Program-made: the position numbers and the translations under genes
Assembly (NCBI RefSeq): GCF_000025485.1
Contig: NC_013851.1
Location: 2,275,501-2,339,500, forward strand
Source: Allochromatium vinosum DSM 180
Lineage (GTDB): Bacteria; Pseudomonadota; Gammaproteobacteria; Chromatiales; Chromatiaceae
Direction: 5' to 3'
DNA: 64,000 nucleotides
In this document: piece after piece, positions 4,686 to 53,488 of the stretch
Layout of the letters: the number at the start of each line of letters is the position of its first letter
Position numbering within the stretch: position 1 is the stretch's first letter
The notes under the pieces: model-generated
What the model was told of the DNA's origin: nothing
Seen by the model: the letters and a program-made list of their open reading frames with translations, nothing else
The model's database searches: none

Positions 4686-4752
4686 TCGGAGGCGCATCCC
4701 CGTCTTTCGGCTCGACGGCTGAAAGCAATACGTCAGACATTGAAGTCGAACC

Positions 4753-4781
4753 GATGCGGCACGCCAAAAGCGCGCCGCATC
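4753..4781. terminator. Possible intrinsic terminator between convergent genes
   Basis: An 8-bp inverted repeat (GATGCGGC ... GCCGCATC) with a 13-base loop lies in the 109-bp gap between the META protein gene and serC, which converge here. The T tract after it is weak, so termination could be partial or protein-assisted. Confidence 0.4.
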
Positions 4782-4794
4782 TTGCATCGGCCTA

Positions 4795-5877
4795 TCAGCC
4801 GTTGCGACGCTCGAACTCCTGCATGAAGGCCACCAGCGCATCCACCCCCGCCTCGGGCATGGCGTTGTAGATGCTCGCGCGCATCCCGCCGACCGAGCGA
4901 TGCCCCTTGAGCGTGGTCAGCCCAGCGGCTTTAGCCTCCTTGAGGAAGACCTCGTCCAGCTCGGCGTTGGCCAGGGTGAAGGGCACGTTCATCCAGGAGC
5001 GATCCGTCGGCGCAACCGGGTTGGCATAGAAGCTCGACGCATCGATGACGTCATAGAGCTTCCTGGCCTTGCGTGCATTGACATCGGCCATCGCCGCCAG
5101 ACCGCCCATGTCCTTCAGCCACTTGAACACCAGACCCGCCAGATACCAGGCATAGGTCGGCGGGGTGTTGTACATGGAGTCGTTGTCGGCGTGGATCTTG
5201 TAGTCGAGCATGGTCGGCGTGCCGTTGATCGGCTGGCCGATCAGATCCTCGCGCACGATGACGATGGTCAGGCCCGCCGGACCGATGTTCTTCTGCGCAC
5301 CGGCATAGATCAGCCCGAACTTGGACACATCAATGGGACGCGACAGGATGGTCGAGGACATGTCGGCGACCAGCGGCTTGTCGCCGGTCTCGGGCACATA
5401 GGGGAACTCGACGCCCTCGATGGTCTCGTTCGGCGTGTAGTGGACATAGGCCGCATCGGCGCTCAGATTCAGCTCGTCCTGGGCCGGCGCGCGGGTGAAC
5501 TTGCTCGACTCAGTCGTCGCGGCGACGTTCACGGTGCCATAGTGACGCGCCTCGGCGATCGCCTTCTTCGACCAGGAGCCGGTGTTGATGTAGTCCGCGC
5601 CCTCGGCCCCGCGCAGCAGGTTCATGGGGATCATGGCGAACTGGAGCGAGGCGCCGCCCTGCAGAAACAGCACCTTGTAATTGGCCGGAATCGCGAGCAG
5701 CTCACGCAAATCGGCCTCGGCCTCGGCGGCGATGGACATGAACTCCTTGCCGCGATGGCTCATCTCGGCCACGCACATGCCGCTGCCGCGCCAATCGAGC
5801 ATCTCGTCGCGGGCCTGGGCCAGGACCGCCTCGGGCAGCATCGCGGGACCGGCACTGAAGTTATAGACGCGAGCCAT
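4795..5877 (-). CDS. serC: Phosphoserine aminotransferase
   Basis: 360 residues. SerC converts 3-phosphohydroxypyruvate plus glutamate to phosphoserine, and also serves pyridoxal phosphate synthesis through 4-phosphohydroxythreonine. It shows the family N-terminus [13 protein letters not shown], the LQGGASLQF block, the PLP lysine Lys196 in [12 protein letters not shown], and the C-terminal [17 protein letters not shown] motif. The ATG at 5877 has GGGGA eight bases upstream. An in-frame start at 5892 would add five residues without homology. It lies 72 bp downstream of gyrA on the same strand, the common gyrA-serC arrangement of gammaproteobacteria, so the two may be cotranscribed. Confidence 0.96.
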
Positions 5878-5949
5878 TCTGACATTCCCCATGGGTTGAG
5901 TGTTCTGCGGTGGACATCCCGTAGGATGCGGTGAGCGGTTCGATCGAGG

Positions 5950-8900
5950 CTAGGCGTCGTCCGCCACGGACGCCTCGCTGTCCTCGGCGGCCTCCTCGCC
6001 CGTTTCCTTGTCGCCCTCCAGGGCGGCGATGCGTTCGACGAAGACCAGTCGCTGGCCCTCGCCGAGATTGATCAGTTTGACGCCCTTGGTATTGCGTCCG
6101 ACCACCGGGATCTGATCGACCGAGGTGCGGATCAGAGTGCCGTCGTCGGCGATCAGCATGATCTCGTCGCCCGGATGGACCAGGATCGCGCCGACCTGAG
6201 CGCCGTTACGCTCAGCGGTGTCGATGGCGATCACGCCCTGGGTGCCACGCCCCTTGGTCGGAAACTGATCGACGTCGGTGCGCTTGCCATAGCCGTTCTC
6301 GGTGACGCTGAGCACGGTGCCGCCGTCCTCGGGCGCGACCAGGGCGATCACCCGCTGTCCCTCCTGGAGCATCACGCCGCGCACACCATGCGCTGCGCGT
6401 CCCATCGAGCGGACATGGCTCTCGGAGAAGCGCACCGCCTTGCCCGCCGAGGTGAAGAGCATCAGATCCTGCTCGCCGCCGGTGATGGTCGCGCCGACCA
6501 GCAGCTCGTCTTCACGCAGGTCGATGGCGATGATGCCGCGCGAGAGCGGACGCGAGAAGTCCTTGAGCGGGGTCTTCTTGACCGTGCCGGCGCTGGTGGC
6601 CATGAACACGAAGGAGCCGTCCTCGTAGTCGCGTACCGGCAGCAGGGTGGTGATGCGCTCGCCAGCTTCCAGCGGCAGCAGATTGACCATGGGTCGCCCG
6701 CGCGCGCCGCGTCCGGCCTGCGGCAACTCGTAGACCTTGAGCCAGTAGACCCGCCCGCGGCTGGAGAAGCAGAGCACGGTATCGTGCGAGTTGGCGACGA
6801 AGATGCGGTCGATGAAGTCCTCTTCCTTGATCGCGGTGGCGCTCTTGCCCTTGCCACCGCGCTTTTGGGCCTGATAGTCGCTGATCGGCTGCGTCTTGAC
6901 GTAGCCCTGATGCGAGAGCGTGACCACGCGATCCTCGGGCGCGATCAAATCCTCCAGGGTCAGATCCGTTTGGTCGAGCTGGATCTCGGTGCGGCGCTCG
7001 TCGCCGAACTGGTCGCGCACGGCGATCAGTTCCTCGCGGATGACCTCCATCAGCCGATCCGGATCGGAGAGGATCAAGAGCAGCGCGGCGATGGTCGCCA
7101 GAATCTCTTCGAACTCCTTGAGGATCTTGTCCTGCTCCAGCCCGGTCAGGCGGTGCAGTTGCAGATCCAGGATCGCCTTGGCCTGACGCTCGCTCAACCG
7201 ATAGCCGGCGTCGCTGAGTCCGAAGCAGGCTTCGAGTTCTTCCGGACGGGTGCGGTCGGCCCCGGCGCGTTCCAGCATTCCGGTGACGGCGCCGGGCGCC
7301 CAGTGGCGCTCCATCAGCCGCTCGCGGGCCTCGGCGGGATTGGCGGCGGCCTTGATGGTCGCAATCACCTCGTCGATGTTGGCCAGCGCGATGGCATAGC
7401 CTTCCAGCACATGCGCTCGGTCGCGCGCCTTGCGCAGTTCATAGAGGGTGCGGCGTGTGACGACGTCGCGGCGGTGGCGCAGGAAGTATTCGAGGATCTG
7501 CTTGAGGTTGAGCGTCAGCGGCTGGCCGTCGACCAGCGCGACCATGTTGATGCCGAACACCTGCTGGAGCTGGGTGTGCTGATAGAGGTTGTTGAGCAGC
7601 ACCTCGGAGTGGGTGTCGCGCTTGAGTTCGATGACGATGCGCATCCCGTCCTTGTCGGACTCGTCGCGCAGACCGTCCTGGGCGATGCCCTCGATCTTCT
7701 TCTCCTTGACCAGTTCGGCGATGCGCTCCAGCAGCCGCGCCTTGTTGACCTGATAAGGGATCTCGGTGATGACGATCGCCTCGCGTCCGCTACGCTTCTG
7801 GGTCTCGGTCGTGGCGCGGGCGCGCATCACGCAGCGGCCGCGTCCGGTGCGGTAGGCTTCGCGGATGCCGCGCACCCCGTTGATGAGTCCGGCGGTCGGG
7901 AAGTCCGGTCCGGGCACGATCTCCATCAGCTCGTCGAGCGACACCAGCGGGTTGTCGATGATCGCCAGACAGGCGTCGATGACCTCGCGCAGATTGTGCG
8001 GGGGGATGTTGGTCGCCATGCCGACGGCGATGCCGGATGAGCCGTTGACCAGCAGATTCGGAAAGCGCGCCGGCAGGACCGAGGGCTCGTGCTCGGTGTT
8101 GTCATAGTTCGGGACGAAATCGACCGTTTCCTTGTCCAGATCGTCGAGCAGGGTGTCGGCGATGCGCGTCATGCGCACTTCGGTGTAACGCATGGCGGCC
8201 GGTGGATCGCCATCGACCGAGTTATGGACGAAGACACCGCACGCCAGCAGGAAATTGTGATGGTGATCGACCGTGATGTCGTAAGTGTCCGCGCGCTCGG
8301 TGAGTCGACGTTGACTGACAACCCGATGGTTATAATGTCTGCCCGCCGTAACGAGTGCATCAAAGTCGCCGAAATACTCGACGGCCTTGTTCAGGCGCGG
8401 AATCCAATTCTGCTGGCGATTCGATTCGTACAGTTCGGGGGTGACATCACAGTCAGGGAATCGCTTGGTCAGATCATAAACATAACCCGCGATCTTACGC
8501 CGCATCACCTGCCGGCGATATTCAGGCGCTTTCCAATTCGTTCGCAAGGACTCGACCGCTTTACGGTTGATATCCTGCATCAAATCAGGATTTTCGCGTA
8601 ATCGGCGTGCATTGCTGTCGATGACAGCCTGCTTCTGAGCCTGGATGAATTCAGCGGATTCCCACTGCTTGGAAATTTTTTCGCGATGGATCTCACGAGC
8701 TTCCGGCTTGTCCCAGAACCTGTGTGCCATGCGCGAGAAATGATCGGCTGGAAATTTTGCTCGATATTCAGGATCTTGCCACTGACGCTTGACGGCCTCG
8801 CTGATTTTCTTACGAATACTGTCGGAGGCCATGGCGCGGCAAATCGCCGCAACGATCTCTTCACGCTTGTCGTCGTCACCCCACATGCGCCGGCTTTTTT

Positions 8901-31054: not shown

Positions 31055-31091
31055 CTTGCGGGCTGACGCGTTGATGCGTCAAGCGTATATA

Positions 31092-31182
31092 TGGCGGAGA
31101 GGGAGGGATTCGAACCCTCGATAGGGTATTAGCCTATACACACTTTCCAGGCGTGCTCCTTAAACCACTCGGACACCTCTCC
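31092..31182 (-). tRNA. tRNA-Ser (anticodon GGA)
   Basis: 91 bases including an encoded CCA end. Acceptor GGAGAGG pairs with CCTCTCC, the anticodon loop is CTGGAAA (anticodon GGA), a long variable arm typical of type II tRNA-Ser follows, and the T loop reads GGTTCGAATCC. The variable arm and anticodon agree on serine. Confidence 0.96.
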
Positions 31183-31413
31183 AGCAGAGACATCGAGCCA
31201 TCATCGGCTTTTGCGCGTCGGCTATAGCCGGCCATCCCTGTCGCTCGATAAGCAGCGTACTATACATCAATACACTCCCGCCTGCAATCAGCGCCGACTA
31301 CGGCATTTTGAATGCGAATGCAGTGGCTCGTGACCCACGTCAATGTGATCGAGCGCAGAATTTGCTGATATAACTCCCCGGACATTCCATACTCTTGGCT
31401 GAGGACTCGCCCC

Positions 31414-31869
31414 ATGGCCACGATCGACAACGACCAGGATCTTCGCGCGGCGCTCAATCGGTTGACCCCGGATCAGCAACGACAGCTCGGTTGCCGGTTC
31501 GCGCAACAGGTGATGAGCCTGAGCCGTGACGAGCGCGTGAACCGTGCCATCGCCACCGGACTCACGGACACGATCACACCCGGCGAACTGGAGGACGCTT
31601 TCCGGGCGGCCCGTGCCTATGCCGTCAAGACTTATACCGACTGTGGCCGGGATACCGACTGGCTGGCACAGGCCGATCACTTCGTCGCCGCCGCCGCCGC
31701 CGCCGCTCTGACCCCGGACGAGTTCATGACCGAACGACAGAATCGCGCCTGGAAAGCGGCCGTTCAGGCACGCATGGCCGTCAGTTGTGCCATGATGGAA
31801 GACGATTCGGCCGACGAGAGCCATACCGCACGACAGCAACACGCACTGGCAGCCGAGTTTCTCGGCTGA
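31414..31869 (+). CDS. Hypothetical protein, mostly helical
   Basis: 151 residues starting MATIDNDQDLRAALNRLTPDQQRQLG. It is predicted almost all helical with no signal peptide or membrane segment. There are three cysteines (in GCRFAQQ, TDCGRD and SCAMM) without a metal-site spacing. An alanine run (VAAAAAAAL) lies near residue 95. Composition matches neighbouring genes, and the frame closes cleanly before the next gene. No family recognised. It might be a regulatory partner for the adjacent polysaccharide genes, but nothing shows this. Confidence 0.65.
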   Translation: MATIDNDQDLRAALNRLTPDQQRQLGCRFAQQVMSLSRDERVNRAIATGLTDTITPGELEDAFRAARAYAVKTYTDCGRDTDWLAQADHFVAAAAAAALTPDEFMTERQNRAWKAAVQARMAVSCAMMEDDSADESHTARQQHALAAEFLG

Positions 31870-31942
31870 ATTCACAGCCTCGCCCTGGATTCGCTCCACG
31901 CGCGTCACCGTCGCTGAACGCATCACATTCCGGAGGTCTGAA

Positions 31943-32368
31943 ATGCACAAAATCGGTTTGTCCGTATCGGGAGCCGCCCTGGCGCTCGCCCTGGGTCTTG
32001 CGCTACCCGACAACATCCAGGCCCAGCCAGGTGGTGGGCCGGGTCAGGGGCCGCAGGGTTCGAGTCAGGGGATGAATCAAGGCCAGGGGCCCAGTCAGGG
32101 CCAGGGTGGCCAGCAGAATCAAAGACCCAATCAGCCGCAGCAGGGGCAGTCCCAGGGATCAGGACGCGGCCCGGGATATGGATATAGCCCTAGCGGACCC
32201 GGATATGACCGCGGACCAGGCTATGGGCGTGGACCGGGCGGCTATGGCCCGCCGCCCCCGCGCAACGATTATGGTCCGGGATATGGCCCTGGATACGGTC
32301 CGGGATACGGCCCCGGTCCCGACGGCCCCATGCCTTACGGCGGACGGCGCCCGCCTCCGGGCTATTGA
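31943..32368 (+). CDS. Secreted Gly/Gln/Pro/Tyr-rich low-complexity protein
   Basis: 141 residues with GGAGG before the ATG. A signal peptide (about 1-27, ...PDNIQAQ) leads into a Gln/Gly-rich section (28-75) and then Gly-Tyr-Gly-Pro repeats (75-130) with a YGPGYGPGYGPG core. The bias resembles matrix, adhesive or cell-surface structural proteins, and it lies directly upstream of a Wzz/tyrosine-kinase-like pair. Function unknown. The exact repeat count may vary between strains because of the DNA repeats beneath. Confidence 0.7.
   Translation: MHKIGLSVSGAALALALGLALPDNIQAQPGGGPGQGPQGSSQGMNQGQGPSQGQGGQQNQRPNQPQQGQSQGSGRGPGYGYSPSGPGYDRGPGYGRGPGGYGPPPPRNDYGPGYGPGYGPGYGPGPDGPMPYGGRRPPPGY
32268..32315 (+). 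repeat. Short tandem repeats encoding YGPG units
   Basis: Imperfect 12-base units of the type TATGGTCCGGGA repeated about four times within the low-complexity secreted protein gene. Such tracts are prone to slippage in whole 12-base steps, which would keep the frame. Confidence 0.6.
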
Positions 32369-32455
32369 CGCGCCCGGGTCCCCGGCGAAGCCGCACCCCC
32401 GCTGCGGGGCGCGGCTCCGCATCCAAAGTCTGCGCTGTCAAGGTCAGATCTTTTC

Positions 32456-47000: not shown

Positions 47001-47247
47001 CGAAAGAGCGCCGGCATGAGCGCCGCGCCGAATCGGCTGTCCTGGCTGGTTCGGCGGGATGGGATCAGCGGATGCACGAACGAAAACAGCCGAGGGAACC
47101 TCAGCCCCAGCGGGCGGTACGCGAGCAGTGCTTTCGCCAACAGCGCCATTACGAGCATTGCGGCAGGTTAGCTTCCGGATTGCGCAAACTGGGATACTGA
47201 CACGGGCATTTCTTCAGTTACGTTGTAAAAAAATCATATTTCCTGCA

Positions 47248-48486
47248 TTAAAAATTCCGCGTGCCCTTACAGCCAGGATACTGTGAACAGCCCCAGAACT
47301 GACCGTAGCGCCCGGAACGCAACCGCATTGAAGAACCACAATACGGACAGGTTGGAGTGCCAGACCTAGTGGTAACGCGCGGCGACGTAGGTGTTATGAC
47401 GCGGGATGCGCTGGGCGGCGACGTTACTGTCAGCGTAACGCTTGAAGCCGGAACTAAAACGGATAATTCGCGCAAGTCTTTTGCAGCTTGCGCTCGGGCT
47501 GCGAGAGCGTCTGTAAGTGCTCTGTCGCTTCTAGCCTTGGCAGGTAGCGTGTCAAGGCGGGTCTTGGCGTTTCTGAGGGTACCTAGTCCGTTGCGGATCA
47601 CGGATTCCAACTTAGCCTTTTCTGCTGAGAAACGCCCACGCAGAGTCCTTTCATCGGCGACGTCCTGCGCATTTGGTGTCGAGTCATATTTGAACCGGGA
47701 CTCAAGCCCACGCCGCCACGCCATCAGCTTGCCGGTCATCACGTCACCGAAACCGGGAACACGCAGGACGGCAGACTGGTTCACATCAGCGGCTGTTTCG
47801 ATACCAAAGGATATGAGCGTAGCGGTTTTAGCCGGGCCAATACCAGAAATGTTTGCATGGCGTATCGAAAAACGATCAAGGTAGGTCTGTCGCTGACGCG
47901 ACTCCCGGTTGGATTTCATCACCATCAACTCGCGCGCGAGCGCGTCGTCAAGACCTTTGTAGGTCGCGATAGCGACATCTAAATCGCCGTAAACCTTCAT
48001 GACCTCGGTCATTCCGTTGCGCTGAACGAAGGCGTTTAACTCACGCTGCACTCGTTCATCAGCTTCCTTGAAGGTTTTCTGGAACGGGGCGGATTCAACT
48101 TCACGGTCAGAGAACTTGACCAACCCCCAAATTAACAACCCAAACCACACAATCCCAGCCGGAGCGGCGAAGATGAAACCGGCGATGGCACTACCTATCA
48201 TGAGCAAACCAGACAAAGGACGCCAGCGCTTTTCCCTCCTAGCTTCGCGGAGTGCATTACTAACACCATGCGGCTGCGCCACAGCAGGAAGCAAGTCTGC
48301 AACAGTTGGAAAGCGGAACGCCAGAATTTCGCGAATTGCCTGTTCCGTGCCGTGCGCATCGGTTGGAATGTTCAGATCAACAGTGGCTAGATCGGGGAAC
48401 ATGTCAAAACGACTGTTGCCCATCAGTTCGCACCAAACACATCCCCGGGCACTACCCATCTCATTACACACATGTTCATAAGTCAT
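47248..48486 (-). CDS. C-terminal fragment of a YegI-like kinase (TM, HhH, zinc ribbon), cut off by the IS
   Basis: 412 codons. The first ten or so codons (to the 9-bp duplication at 48448-48456) come from the IS end; native sequence starts at RGCVWCELMGNSRFDMF. Contents: a CxxC pair, two membrane segments (about 90-125), a coiled region, two helix-hairpin-helix motifs (ISGIGPAKTATLISFG, VPGFGDVMTGKL), and a C-terminal topoisomerase-type zinc ribbon (CPYCGSSMRLRSGRYGQFWGCSQYPGCKG). This is the rear half of the kinase that begins at 50811. An AGGGA site six bases before the ATG, inside the IS, could let it be translated separately. The frame is intact to its stop. Confidence 0.85.
   Translation of the reverse strand: MTYEHVCNEMGSARGCVWCELMGNSRFDMFPDLATVDLNIPTDAHGTEQAIREILAFRFPTVADLLPAVAQPHGVSNALREARREKRWRPLSGLLMIGSAIAGFIFAAPAGIVWFGLLIWGLVKFSDREVESAPFQKTFKEADERVQRELNAFVQRNGMTEVMKVYGDLDVAIATYKGLDDALARELMVMKSNRESRQRQTYLDRFSIRHANISGIGPAKTATLISFGIETAADVNQSAVLRVPGFGDVMTGKLMAWRRGLESRFKYDSTPNAQDVADERTLRGRFSAEKAKLESVIRNGLGTLRNAKTRLDTLPAKARSDRALTDALAARAQAAKDLRELSVLVPASSVTLTVTSPPSASRVITPTSPRVTTRSGTPTCPYCGSSMRLRSGRYGQFWGCSQYPGCKGTRNF
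48448..48456. repeat. 9-bp target-site duplication, left copy
   Basis: GGCACTACC on the plus strand, directly outside the IS end at 48457; identical to 49876-49884. Confidence 0.92.
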
Positions 48487-49875
48487 GAGATTCCCTGGCG
48501 TATTTGATCCCGGCGGCCACGTCTCTGATGCGCTGCAGACCGAGCCAAATGGTCTTCACACCGGGCTCGCCATCGCCCTTGCGTCCGAGAAAACCGCCCT
48601 GGCGGGCGATCAAGCGCAGCACGTCGTTGAGTCGTGGAGGCGACTTGGGTACGGGCTTCTTGGCCAGGATGTAGGTCGCTTGCCACTCTTCGGGTTCAAA
48701 CAACAGCGACGCCTCCAGGTCTGGCACGGTACGCCCCAGACGCATCAGTCGGGCGATGCGCCATCCCACCACCAGAAACAGCGCGAAGGCGCGCTCCAGG
48801 CGCGCGACGGTGCCCAGTTGCAGGGCCTCGACACGACAGCCTTCCTTGAGCACCAAAAACAGCCGTTCGATTTCCCAGCGCGCCCGGTACCACTCGATCA
48901 GTTCGACGACGGTCGCGAGCGTCTCCGCCGTGCGGTTGGTCAGCAGACGCCATTCAATCGGTTTGACGCCCTTGGGAGCCTCCATTTCACGGGCGATCAC
49001 ACAGGTGACCTCAAGGTGACCGTGGCGCCGATCCGAGAGCGTGACGCCTCTGGCATAGAGTTGCTGACGCACCTCTCGGGCCTGACGTCCGCGACCGGGC
49101 GGCCGGGTGAAGCGCACCGTCCCAAGTGGCTTGGTCTCCAGCACATGCGCCCACAGCTTCCGGCCCTCGCCACCGGGCAACGCGCGGTTATGCTTGGCGC
49201 GCAACAGCCAATCGGCGGGGGTTGCCAAATCCCGAGCGCGCACCATCAGGTCCAGTATGTCGGCCTCACGATCGGCCACATAGACCAGGCGGGTGTCGGG
49301 CAACTCCCTGGCCAGGTCCGCGACCCGTTCATAGCCTTCTTTCCAGCGCACACTCTCGGGGCCTCCCGGACGCTGGCCGTCGGCGTCTTTTGGCTCGCGG
49401 GCCCACATCCAGGCATCCAGGACACCCAACGGTTCGCGCTCGGGCGTCACCGCGTAGGTCGGATGCAGGTACATCCCGCGCTGGGCCTCGTAGCTCAAGG
49501 GACCAAGTCCTTTGATCGTCTGGCCGTTGAAGTCCAGCTCCGTGGTGTCCTGCAGACACAGCACCACCGGATAGGCCGCCATGCGCCTCTGCGTGCACTG
49601 ACGATGCGGCTCCAGAATGTCGAGCCAGTCGTAGCGTTCACTGCCGAGAAACCGATAGGCCGCCTGCGTCTCCGCCCAGCCGTTGCAGGCCCCCGGAATA
49701 CTCGCCGTCGGATGCTCGGCCAGGCGCTCGATCAAGTGGATCGCACGCCGGTCGCGGCGCGTGTCGCCCAGATCAATCGAGGCCAATTCTTCCGACGCCC
49801 AGCCCATCGTGTGCTCCAACATGTCTCAGAAAAACAGTTCTCTATCGTACACCCAGAGTTCTGTGTAATGGGATG
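48457..49875 (-). mobile_element. Complete IS4-family (IS50-like) insertion sequence, 1419 bp
   Basis: The ends are inverted repeats: reading inward, CATCTCATTACACA at 48457 and CATCCCATTACACA at 49875 (13 of 14 match). The element is flanked on both sides by the same 9 bases, GGTAGTGCC on the minus strand (48448-48456 and 49876-49884). It holds one transposase gene on the minus strand. The 9-bp duplication and Tn5-like transposase fit the IS50 group. It interrupts the YegI-like kinase gene. It is GC-rich, unlike the gene it entered. Confidence 0.93.
48476..49822 (-). CDS. IS4-family transposase (Tn5/IS50-like)
   Basis: 448 residues. N-terminal Tn5-type DNA-binding domain (WASEELASIDLGDTRRDRRAIHLIERLAEHPTASIPGACNGWAETQAAYRFL, in two parts), then an RNase H-like DDE core. 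The catalytic Asp residues are in CLQDTTELDF and YVADREADILDL, and the Glu is in the Y-x-x-RW-x-IE-x-x-F-x-x-LK block (YRARWEIERLFLVLK). The C-terminal domain resembles the Tn5 dimerisation part (LARQGGFLGRKGDGEPG). It looks complete and functional. Its last codons overlap the start of the kinase rear-half frame. Confidence 0.95.
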   Translation of the reverse strand: MLEHTMGWASEELASIDLGDTRRDRRAIHLIERLAEHPTASIPGACNGWAETQAAYRFLGSERYDWLDILEPHRQCTQRRMAAYPVVLCLQDTTELDFNGQTIKGLGPLSYEAQRGMYLHPTYAVTPEREPLGVLDAWMWAREPKDADGQRPGGPESVRWKEGYERVADLARELPDTRLVYVADREADILDLMVRARDLATPADWLLRAKHNRALPGGEGRKLWAHVLETKPLGTVRFTRPPGRGRQAREVRQQLYARGVTLSDRRHGHLEVTCVIAREMEAPKGVKPIEWRLLTNRTAETLATVVELIEWYRARWEIERLFLVLKEGCRVEALQLGTVARLERAFALFLVVGWRIARLMRLGRTVPDLEASLLFEPEEWQATYILAKKPVPKSPPRLNDVLRLIARQGGFLGRKGDGEPGVKTIWLGLQRIRDVAAGIKYARESHDL

Positions 49876-50811
49876 GGCACTACCGGGGTAATAGTGCGTC
49901 TTGATTTTGCTACAACGGTTCAACAAACCTTCCAAAGAATTCAGGGCGTGAATCCAGTCCATCGCAGTTGGACGCGCGGACGGTGACAGTCCAAAGGAAT
50001 TCTCGAACGCACGGGAGATTGCGTCCGGGAACATATCAAGTTTCAGTGAGCCGGGCGGCGGAGTGGTTTGGGTTGCGGCTTGGCGGGTGAGCGAAAAGGC
50101 AAACCGGTTCTGGGAAATGGCATCGCCCATCGAAATGTCGGGGCCGCTGTAACGTCCTGCGTAAGGGTGACGACCCATGAACAGAAGATGAAAAATCGCA
50201 ACGGCTAGCCCAAAGTTATCATGCTCTATAGTTCGCTGAACGGATGCGAGATTCCTCCCGTGTAATTCGGGCGGGGTGAAGTCAGGAACACCAACAACGC
50301 AAGGGTAGTATTTGCCGTTCAGGGTGAACTGAAAGCTATCTGCATCAATCAGAGCAACAGTCGCGTCCTGCGCCACAAGTACACCGGAATGATTCAAATC
50401 ACCGATGACACATCCAGTCTGATGCACCATGCCAACGGCACGTGCGACGTTAAGCGCGGCACGGACAATAAACCGATAATCAGCTTTAGGGAAATGGCGC
50501 TGCCGGGACTTCGGGCTATATAGCTCATGCAGTGGGCGATACCCCGACACAAGTCGCATTTCAAAACCAATGAAGTTGCCACGACTGTCGGTCACAACAT
50601 GACCGGGATAGGCAACAAGATCTGTCTTGACTGCAAGACCTTCACGCACCATCGCCCGCACCTTGTCTTCGCGTTTAGCGCGCAGGCTAGGGTCGTAGAT
50701 TTTAACGGCCAGTCCAGAACGACCCTTGAGCGCGTAGACTTCGCCTTCACCACCCTTTCCAATCAACTCAGCGACTGAAACCAGATCTTTTCCGATAACG
50801 ACTTCCTGCAC
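49732..50811 (-). CDS. N-terminal fragment of a YegI-like protein kinase, truncated by the IS
   Basis: 359 codons from a GTG at 50811 with a strong GGAGG site. The first 312 codons are native kinase; the last 47 are read from the IS end and stop at 49732. Kinase motifs: glycine loop GKGGEGEVYAL (18-28), catalytic Lys37 (AVKIYD), the HRD-like IGDLNHSGVL with Asp137, and the DFG-like IDADSFQF with Asp155. Family-typical GVPDFTPPELHG follows. It starts two bases after the PP2C stop. In E. coli YegI the same kinase is paired with YegK and YegL. The insertion lies after the kinase domain, so this half could still fold. Confidence 0.87.
   Translation of the reverse strand: MQEVVIGKDLVSVAELIGKGGEGEVYALKGRSGLAVKIYDPSLRAKREDKVRAMVREGLAVKTDLVAYPGHVVTDSRGNFIGFEMRLVSGYRPLHELYSPKSRQRHFPKADYRFIVRAALNVARAVGMVHQTGCVIGDLNHSGVLVAQDATVALIDADSFQFTLNGKYYPCVVGVPDFTPPELHGRNLASVQRTIEHDNFGLAVAIFHLLFMGRHPYAGRYSGPDISMGDAISQNRFAFSLTRQAATQTTPPPGSLKLDMFPDAISRAFENSFGLSPSARPTAMDWIHALNSLEGLLNRCSKIKTHYYPGSAHPITQNSGCTIENCFSETCWSTRWAGRRKNWPRLIWATRAATGVRST
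49876..49884. repeat. 9-bp target-site duplication, right copy
   Basis: GGCACTACC on the plus strand, directly outside the IS end at 49875; identical to 48448-48456. Confidence 0.92.
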
Positions 50812-50813
50812 GG

Positions 50814-51560
50814 TTATCCTCCGGAAATAAGAATTATCGTCTTGTCATCATCAGTGCGATCACAAACCGATGGACTAGCAAGATAGGCAGCTAGTTTTGC
50901 CGAAAGATCTACTAGGCGTCCTTCACCCGATGCAGTTTCAACCGGACGCATCATTGGATCAAAGAATCGTGTATAAGCAACCCGTTCCAAATGCGACAAC
51001 GCTAGATCGCCCACGCCGTCAGAAAATAGTGCGAAAGCATTATATTCACGCGGATGACGGAGTATGTTCAGACGTGGTTCGGGGGCATCGGTGACAAAGT
51101 ATGTGCTGGATGCATATTCACCGTTATCAGGCCAGCAAAGGACATCCCATTCGCAGCCTTTCCTCCCAACAATAGCGCTATCGCCAATGTGTAGCGTGAC
51201 CGCTTCATCCGGCGCGAGAACGATTGCCGCCAAGGTTGCAGCAAACTCACGGGGAACGGTGTCCCTCCGAGTTGCTATGGTGGAAATTCGATCCCTCAAT
51301 TCATCTATCCAACCCGACAAATCCTCATCGGTCGGCAACTCAGGATTTTCAAGGATCCATTCGCGGAATCGAACTATGAGGAAACGGCAAACGAGCCATG
51401 CGCCAAACGCACCGAACTTGGCGCTGCCAGCACCATCAGACACAACAGCAAAGATGTAACCATTACCCAATTCCGAAACAGCATAGGCATCTTGTAACCT
51501 GTCGCCGTTCTGGATGTGGGATGTGCCGATTACGGACGCGGAAGCCCACCGCCAAGCCAT
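50814..51560 (-). CDS. PP2C-type protein phosphatase (YegK-like)
   Basis: 248 residues. PP2C core: IQNGDRLQDAYAV near 20 with Asp residues, VVSDGAGSAKFGAFGAWLV, an EFAATLAAIVLAPDEAVTLHIGDSAIV strand pair, FALFSDGVGDLAL, and RTDDDKTIILI at the end. These match the metal-binding aspartates. This family (PP2C_2) is found next to vWA and kinase genes, where it would reverse the kinase. It starts four bases after the vWA stop and ends two bases before the kinase start, so the three form one tight operon. Confidence 0.9.
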   Translation of the reverse strand: MAWRWASASVIGTSHIQNGDRLQDAYAVSELGNGYIFAVVSDGAGSAKFGAFGAWLVCRFLIVRFREWILENPELPTDEDLSGWIDELRDRISTIATRRDTVPREFAATLAAIVLAPDEAVTLHIGDSAIVGRKGCEWDVLCWPDNGEYASSTYFVTDAPEPRLNILRHPREYNAFALFSDGVGDLALSHLERVAYTRFFDPMMRPVETASGEGRLVDLSAKLAAYLASPSVCDRTDDDKTIILISGG

Positions 51561-51564
51561 AGCG

Positions 51565-52242
51565 TCACCCTGCTACAGCCCAGCCATCTGGGGCGGTCGG
51601 GTTTGCAAGCGGAACGGCATCGCCAGGGTTCGAACGCGAGACGGCGCTAAGGGAACTAGACAACCATCGAAACAATTCCTTGAAGTCCAGCCCTTTCAAC
51701 TTGAGCGGCTGGCGCGTCGCGATCTGACCAAGAACACGCATATCCGCTTGCTCTACACCAACAGCGTAGAACATAAATTCCTTACGTTCCTCGCCTTGGT
51801 GAATACGTCTCTTAGCCTCTTCCCAACTATCGGTTGGGGCACCATCTGTGATCAAGAATACCCACGGGCGGTAGTATTTCACGCCATTATCGCGATAACG
51901 GTTTTTCCGCTGGCGTAGCATGTCCAACCCGGTCAGAATCGCCTCACCCATGGGGGTTGCATTGTCCGCAACCAGCGTTTCAGGATAGAAATGATCTATT
52001 GTGGCGAAGTCGGACTTGATCTCCACAGGCCCGAATGTGACCACAGCCAGTTCCACACGCTTTACGGCCATCGGATCATTCAAGAGTTCTTGCCGCAACG
52101 TGGCCAGTCCCTCGTTCAACTCCGAAATTGGCCTGCCGCTAATTGAGTAGGAAGTGTCCAGCAGAAGGATTACCGGACAACGCTGTTCCGGGTTTTCAGC
52201 GAATTCCACATCACTGAATGGTTGTTGATCGAATTCATTCAT
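51565..52242 (-). CDS. von Willebrand factor A domain protein (YegL/TerY-like)
   Basis: 225 residues. The vWA domain has a complete MIDAS: DTSYSIS (D-x-S-x-S, about 29-35), Thr in NATPMGEAI, and Asp in [17 protein letters not shown] and [10 protein letters not shown] are the usual strands. The TerY/YegL group is cytoplasmic (no signal peptide) and belongs to the tellurite-type stress module. It is the first gene of the vWA-PP2C-kinase operon, with GAGG eight bases before the ATG. Base composition is lower in GC than most of the window. Confidence 0.9.
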
Positions 52243-52787
52243 ATCAAAACCTCATTCATGACTAATGACAATTTTACTTTGTAATCTTTACCGTAACCCA
52301 TCAAAAAAATTAGCCTGAAATCCGACAAACATAACTCTAATTCGAGCTATTTCTATCAGTCTTCAATGTTTTTGATTTACAACACCAAGAAAAATTAGCA
52401 AGGGGGCAAGTTTCGGCATCTATAAGCACCCCGGCCCCTCTTTAATCTTATCCTCTTGATTTCCAATCAGTTAGCCTTCTGGGGACTGCAAAAATCGAGA
52501 ACTAAACAAAGGAACGAGAAAATTTTATTATTTTAATTATTAATAATAACAGAGAATTGCATCAGAAACTGACGACAGACCGACCTGTCTTGATTGAGGT
52601 GCAAAGGAGGAGTGAGGAAGCAGACCGGCTTGGTCAGAGTAGAGAGCCCCCCTCACGCGCGCCCCAACAAAACACCCAGAGAGCCGCATCTGAGCGCAAG
52701 TTTACCAGCACGTAACGGTGACGACCCAGCAGAAACGAAGAAGGAACTGCGGACCAGAAATGGACCGGAAAGCCCGATCAGCAGGCA
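52243..52787. other. AT-rich noncoding region between the kinase triad and the tRNA operon
   Basis: About 545 bp with visibly more A and T than the rest of the window, including A/T runs around 52510-52560. An 80-codon frame near 52594 has no ribosome site and no family resemblance, so I do not call it. The promoter of the vWA operon should lie in the first 100 bp. No repeat of the tRNA-Lys 3' end was found in or beyond it. Confidence 0.55.
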
Positions 52788-52788
52788 T

Positions 52789-52819
52789 AAAAAAAGCGGC
52801 TACATGACTGTAACCGCTT
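52789..52819 (-). terminator. Intrinsic terminator of the tRNA operon
   Basis: Minus strand: AAGCGG / CCGCTT stem extended by TAC/GTA with one bulged base, then seven T. It lies 19 bp past the 3' end of tRNA-Lys. Confidence 0.8.
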
Positions 52820-52837
52820 GTTTTACTTACTATTAAT

Positions 52838-52913
52838 TGGTGGGCTGTCAGGGATTCGAACCCCGGACCGATGGATTAAGAGTCCACTGCTCTACCAGCT
52901 GAGCTAACAGCCC
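52838..52913 (-). tRNA. tRNA-Lys (anticodon CTT)
   Basis: 76 bases with encoded CCA. Acceptor GGGCTGT / ACAGCCC, D loop AGCTCAGCTGGTAGAGC, anticodon loop CTCTTAA, T loop GGTTCGAATCC. Last gene of a four-tRNA operon. Confidence 0.96.
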
Positions 52914-53371: not shown

Positions 53372-53488
53372 CCACTGCATTTCACAAACTCCCACGGCAA
53401 CCGAGATTGTTTACAGTCGACGACGAGTCGCTATCATGGTGCATCCCTAGCCAACTGGCCTTCTTAATTCAGGATTGACGTCGATCAC

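Follow-up and report, generated by a model that had tools for sequence, protein, structure and literature searches.

A TerY-P triad whose kinase carries a zinc ribbon has been described (PMC11090510, citing Anantharaman et al. 2012). In the homologous system of E. coli, YegI is a membrane-bound, autophosphorylating kinase that is dephosphorylated by PphC (PMC13232886), and a TerY-P system has been reported to be active against T7-like phages (PMC7699616). A triad of this kind, with its kinase gene interrupted by an insertion sequence (IS), lies in a 64,000-nucleotide stretch of the genome of Allochromatium vinosum DSM 180 (NCBI RefSeq assembly GCF_000025485.1, contig NC_013851.1, positions 2,275,501 to 2,339,500), hereafter the window, whose own numbering is used throughout. 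Very likely, an IS of the Tn5/IS50 type split the kinase of an acquired triad, with a probable loss of regulated signalling and at a time that is young relative to gene decay.

The interrupted kinase gene

The two parts of the kinase gene are encoded on the minus strand on either side of the IS. The N-terminal part (49885-50811, residues 1-309) comprises the whole kinase domain (Pkinase, E-value 2.9e-9), and the C-terminal part (47248-48456; 402 codons plus stop) comprises a membrane segment, an HhH-like region and a topoisomerase-type zinc ribbon. When 47248-48456 is joined to 49885-50811, the result is 2,136 bases, or 712 codons with a single terminal stop, encoding 711 residues, so that the exact rebuilding in one frame between identical 9-bp flanks, proposed in an earlier note on this DNA, is confirmed. 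The insertion point falls between residues 309 and 310, and the 9-bp duplication encodes G-S-A (residues 310-312), flanked by C300/H306 and C315/C318.

A scan of the rebuilt protein against the genomes of 84,980 species returned 20 loci, comprising 13 long relatives (62-82% identity in the best segment) and seven loci that match the C-terminal zinc-ribbon part only. The record names of the long relatives include alphaproteobacteria, Desulforhopalus, Desulfovibrionaceae, Chlorobiaceae, Verrucomicrobiales, Serratia and Symbiopectobacterium. In an alignment of these 13 genome homologues and the family member L028, all 14 rows are free of gaps over residues 300-320, which span the junction, and C300, H306, C315 and C318 are invariant in all 14; together these residues look like a single metal-binding cluster. 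At the nucleotide level, of 16 homologous loci compared by blastn, 11 have matches that run to about 20 bp or less from the insertion at either end; L039 and L073 stop 80-100 bp short on one side, L040 and L041 match the N-terminal side only, and L071 reaches neither side. Since the rebuilt 711-residue frame aligns to diverse homologues without a gap at the junction, the two parts are best read as a single gene split by the IS. The earlier note had proposed this splitting by an IS4/IS50-type element, to be checked by aligning the rebuilt protein with YegI homologues in related Chromatiaceae. The eight genomes searched in the genus offer no relative for that alignment. The IS limits, the transposase domains and the continuity of homologues from diverse bacteria bear the splitting out. 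The zinc ribbon belongs to the rebuilt frame, and in the present strain kinase and ribbon are found on separate open reading frames (ORFs). A sequence search of the PDB gave no match at E 0.001.

The insertion sequence

The IS occupies 48457-49875 (1,419 bp) in the same orientation as the split kinase gene. Its limits are exact, since the unit was matched end to end at all eight occurrences in the genome (3,669,074 bases searched, in three contigs), and imperfect inverted repeats bound it (CATCTCATTACACA / CATCCCATTACACA). Both flanking 9-mers (48448-48456 and 49876-49884) read GGCACTACC (GGTAGTGCC on the minus strand) and form a perfect target-site duplication, as found at seven of the eight copies, the exception being L004; by our own arithmetic, such a perfect match of nine bases at a given position would arise by chance about 4 times in a million. 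A 9-bp duplication is typical of IS50/Tn5. The transposase (48476-49822, minus strand, 448 residues) contains the Tnp_DNA_bind, DDE_Tnp_1 and Dimer_Tnp_Tn5 domains, passes the NCBIfam IS4 model NF033590 (365.6 bits against a cut-off of 160) and carries at residue 312 a Y-R-E-K pattern, which we take to be the signature of IS4-family transposases of the IS50/Tn5 type. Given the Tn5-type domains, Y-R-E-K, the terminal inverted repeats and the 9-bp duplication, the element belongs to the IS4 family, IS50/Tn5 type. It resembles known elements of this type in its Tn5 DNA-binding, DDE and Tn5 dimerisation domains and in the length of its duplication, but the nearest of them in the plasmid set is only about 68-69% identical, and no ISfinder name can be assigned. 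Compared with the window copy, one genomic copy has one mismatch and another three (of 1,419), the rest being about 94% identical; relatives of the IS in sister genomes occur only as fragments, with 67-90% identity, in two of seven.

Present state of the two halves

The N-terminal ORF now continues to 49732, which adds 50 residues (three from the duplication, 47 from the IS), and retains the kinase residues corresponding to K37, D138, D156 and D158. The C-terminal half contains Zn_ribbon_Top1 (E 3.6e-11) and a hydrophobic stretch at about residues 389-424; its HhH-like region is suggested by the alignment to YegI, and Pfam finds no HhH in this half. Its ORF has 412 residues, of which the first ten are IS-encoded (48457-48486, minus strand). 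The candidate start that opens them, an in-frame ATG at 48486-48484, precedes the end of the transposase gene by 8 bases and overlaps its stop, with an AGGGA-like match to a ribosome site just upstream. Private changes at otherwise invariant columns number two in the N half of the rebuilt protein and one in the C half up to residue 650, against 0-12 and 0-6, respectively, in the 13 homologues, and by this measure neither kinase half appears to have decayed. A search of the same genome detected neither the kinase C half nor the PP2C gene a second time (VWA not searched), and gave a single distant match to the kinase N half (35% over residues 110-293). Promoter and terminator counts in the segment carrying the triad did not exceed those of shuffles.

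Consequences of the insertion and alternative explanations

In an intact triad, the VWA protein and the PP2C phosphatase would set the phosphorylation of, or by, the membrane-bound kinase, the C-terminal tail of the kinase may sense a ligand or nucleic acid, and the module probably has a role in the response to stress or in defence against phages. In the present strain the covalent link of the kinase to the membrane, HhH and zinc-ribbon part is lost, and with it the fused protein. The insertion would thereby leave the kinase detached from the part that holds the membrane segment and the sensor, and would break the C-H-C-C metal-binding cluster, so that regulated signalling is likely to have been lost. 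Two proteins may still be made, a kinase domain with an IS-encoded tail and perhaps a C-terminal half from the IS-borne ATG, the start of which would be coupled to the transposase. The suggestion of the earlier note that the strain may be a natural knock-out of the triad goes too far: the reading frame of the kinase domain is preserved, and the IS supplies the C-terminal half with a candidate start codon. Its dating of the insertion as recent stands: near-identical IS copies elsewhere in the genome, together with the intact halves, support a recent event. The locus offers a natural disruption of apparently datable age in a kinase module that is poorly understood.

Several points weigh against this account. 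The near-identity of the IS copies could also come from gene conversion, and, because even the closest homologue of the rebuilt gene reaches only 82% identity in its best segment, there is no near relative by which a slow or old loss of function could be dated. The AlphaFold2 model of the homologue L031 (mean predicted local distance difference test score 61.9, predicted template modelling score 0.37) is too poor to place the junction, and PADLOC 2.0.0 left the VWA protein unmatched and gave only weak matches for the kinase and PP2C, so that this library lends no support to a role in defence (the presence of TerY-P models in it was not checked).

Alternatively, the kinase could still function in two pieces: a kinase domain, now soluble and extended by a new tail, and a membrane and sensor half whose translation restarts inside the IS. 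The pathway would then be re-wired, not lost. Both halves are indeed open with plausible starts, the N-terminal ORF keeping residues 1-309 with the four kinase positions named above and the ATG at 48486 combining its overlap with the transposase stop and the AGGGA-like match. This arrangement is nevertheless improbable. After a recent insertion both reading frames would be open by chance in any case, the insertion divides the conserved C-H-C-C cluster, and IS elements often lower downstream expression. Far less credible is a repeat-induced misjoin that placed an IS copy here during assembly: the genome does hold eight copies, three of them nearly identical, but a misjoin is not expected to yield a 9-bp direct duplication that restores a conserved frame exactly, and the assembly has only three contigs. 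That the halves were always two genes with the IS merely between them draws on nothing beyond the present state of the sequence and is almost certainly wrong, being rejected, as far as homologues can do so, by the continuity of all 14 aligned homologues across the point and by the perfect target-site duplication.

Genomic setting of the triad

The other two genes of the triad are intact and lie upstream of the kinase gene on the same strand, encoding a PP2C-type phosphatase (50814-51560, 248 residues; PP2C_2, E 7.2e-50) and a TerY/YegL-like VWA protein (51565-52242, 225 residues; VWA, E 3e-9), with four private changes each, within the range of the homologues. The same two genes stand directly upstream of the kinase in all 13 long genome homologues and in both long homologues on viral contigs. 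The module is a VWA-PP2C-kinase triad, namely a TerY-P triad of the zinc-ribbon type that is homologous to E. coli YegL-PphC-YegI.

The triad is carried by an accessory segment of low guanine-plus-cytosine (GC) content (47013-52835), delimited by the break in synteny, GC content and a tRNA-Lys gene (52838-52913, minus strand), the 3' end of which abuts the segment. DNA similarity to sister genomes stops at 47012 in three of three cases, and on the right it restarts at 52833-52836 in three of five regions and at 53388-53409 in the other two. Outside the IS, 1-kb windows of the segment have a GC content of 0.47-0.56, compared with 0.60-0.71 in the flanks. Among eight genomes of the genus the C-terminal half of the kinase is found only in the strain's own, the other seven matching merely topoisomerase-like zinc ribbons, and among 194 genomes of the family it is found in two at E 1e-15, the second being only 29% identical. 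This rarity in genus and family and the lower GC content mark the triad as acquired, and it is a horizontally spread accessory module.

An integrative island with a tRNA attachment repeat was considered and rejected, as no repeat of the tRNA-Lys 3' end beyond 9-nt matches occurs in the segment. No recombinase was found among the segment's five scanned proteins (ORFs in 52243-52835 were not scanned), and the same five, which belong to the triad genes and the IS alone, include no ter, restriction, DNA-processing or CoCoNuT/McrBC genes, in a search that did not extend to the remainder of the window or genome. A plain empty site was not found in sister genomes either; in the three sisters with both flanks these are either on separate contigs or some 270 kb from each other. 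The left-flank gene was matched (E 1e-40 or better) in four of eight genomes, including the strain's own, and folD in all eight. As the flanks are not adjacent in these genomes, the border of the segment also marks a genome rearrangement and is no simple insertion site. Separately, L061 and L062 do not end at 47012 but carry on with sequence matching elsewhere in the window (31091-32426 and 4710-8078).

Mobile contexts and exchangeable tails of related triads

Neighbouring genes were scanned at 11 of the 13 long loci, with 20 of 77 flanking ORFs covered. In four of these 11 (L029, L036, L040 and L041) a phage gene or an integrase neighbours the triad; among the ORFs scanned in the other seven there are none of these genes. 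In L029 (10-6686 of a contig from a metagenome-assembled genome) an intact triad lies between the genes for the terminase large subunit and the portal protein, a position resembling that of cargo set among the packaging genes of a prophage. The neighbour is an integrase in L036 and L040, and Rha- and MuF-type proteins in L041. On viral contigs an alignment-based scan found seven loci, two of them with a long homologue: in L072, terminase and capsid genes precede the triad, and in L073 (5126-13754) the triad is immediately preceded by an integrase and immediately followed by a helicase-PLD protein. An earlier single-protein scan of viral contigs had returned one zinc-ribbon match only. On a conjugative Sphingobium plasmid the triad adjoins a tyrosine recombinase. 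The phage collection contained no match for the kinase C-terminal half or PP2C, and only four weak matches (below 60% identity) for the N-terminal half.

Three of the 13 long homologues (L030, L032 and L037) deviate at the far C-terminus. In the Desulforhopalus locus L032 (6001-8346) a WYL domain replaces the zinc ribbon on the same kinase, L037 ends after residue 651 without a zinc ribbon, and in the Jhaorihella locus L030 (3600-4100) the zinc ribbon follows residue 651 in another frame, by a frameshift or a draft error. The sensor tail thus appears to be exchangeable, and the "YegI-like" genes in this group are accessory and mobile, built with exchangeable tails. A wider proposal is offered tentatively, as one we consider rather doubtful: zinc-ribbon VWA-PP2C-YegI triads would form a mobile phage-exclusion or stress module, borne by prophages, integrase-linked elements or plasmids and fitted with interchangeable tails (zinc ribbon, WYL or none), in which the IS has here cut the kinase exactly off its sensor half, leaving the module off or the kinase sensor-less.

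Comparison with known systems

The disruption is real and clean, but ordinary and in a known kind of module. The earlier note had likened the rebuilt protein to YegI. In favour of this, the E. coli YegL-PphC-YegI genes comprise the three kinds in identical order, and homology to YegI extends over the kinase, membrane and HhH regions (phmmer, residues 9-616, E 9.9e-95). In contrast, E. coli YegI (648 residues) ends before the zinc ribbon, which the window kinase has at its C-terminus, so that the likeness holds except for this tail. The better label is the TerY-P triad of the zinc-ribbon kinase type, with which the locus shares the VWA protein, PP2C and a kinase with a C-terminal zinc ribbon in one operon, and from which it differs in the interruption of the kinase (PMC11090510). 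Another IS inside such a triad is seen in an E. coli record (L070:1094-2597), whose annotation places an IS1 transposase between pphC and yegI. The anti-phage TerY-P system of Gao et al. 2020 has the same VWA-phosphatase-kinase make-up (PMC7699616, PMC11090510), but its kinase has an OB fold in place of the zinc ribbon (PMC11090510). Our literature search brought up no paper that we recognised as describing either the insertion of an IS into this kinase gene or TerY-P genes carried by a prophage. Disrupted TerY-P clusters as such are already known from Helicobacter pylori, where, as at this locus, an island was reduced by gene disruption, there together with deletion; the loss in H. pylori extends across many strains, whereas the window holds a single IS insertion (PMC4978471).

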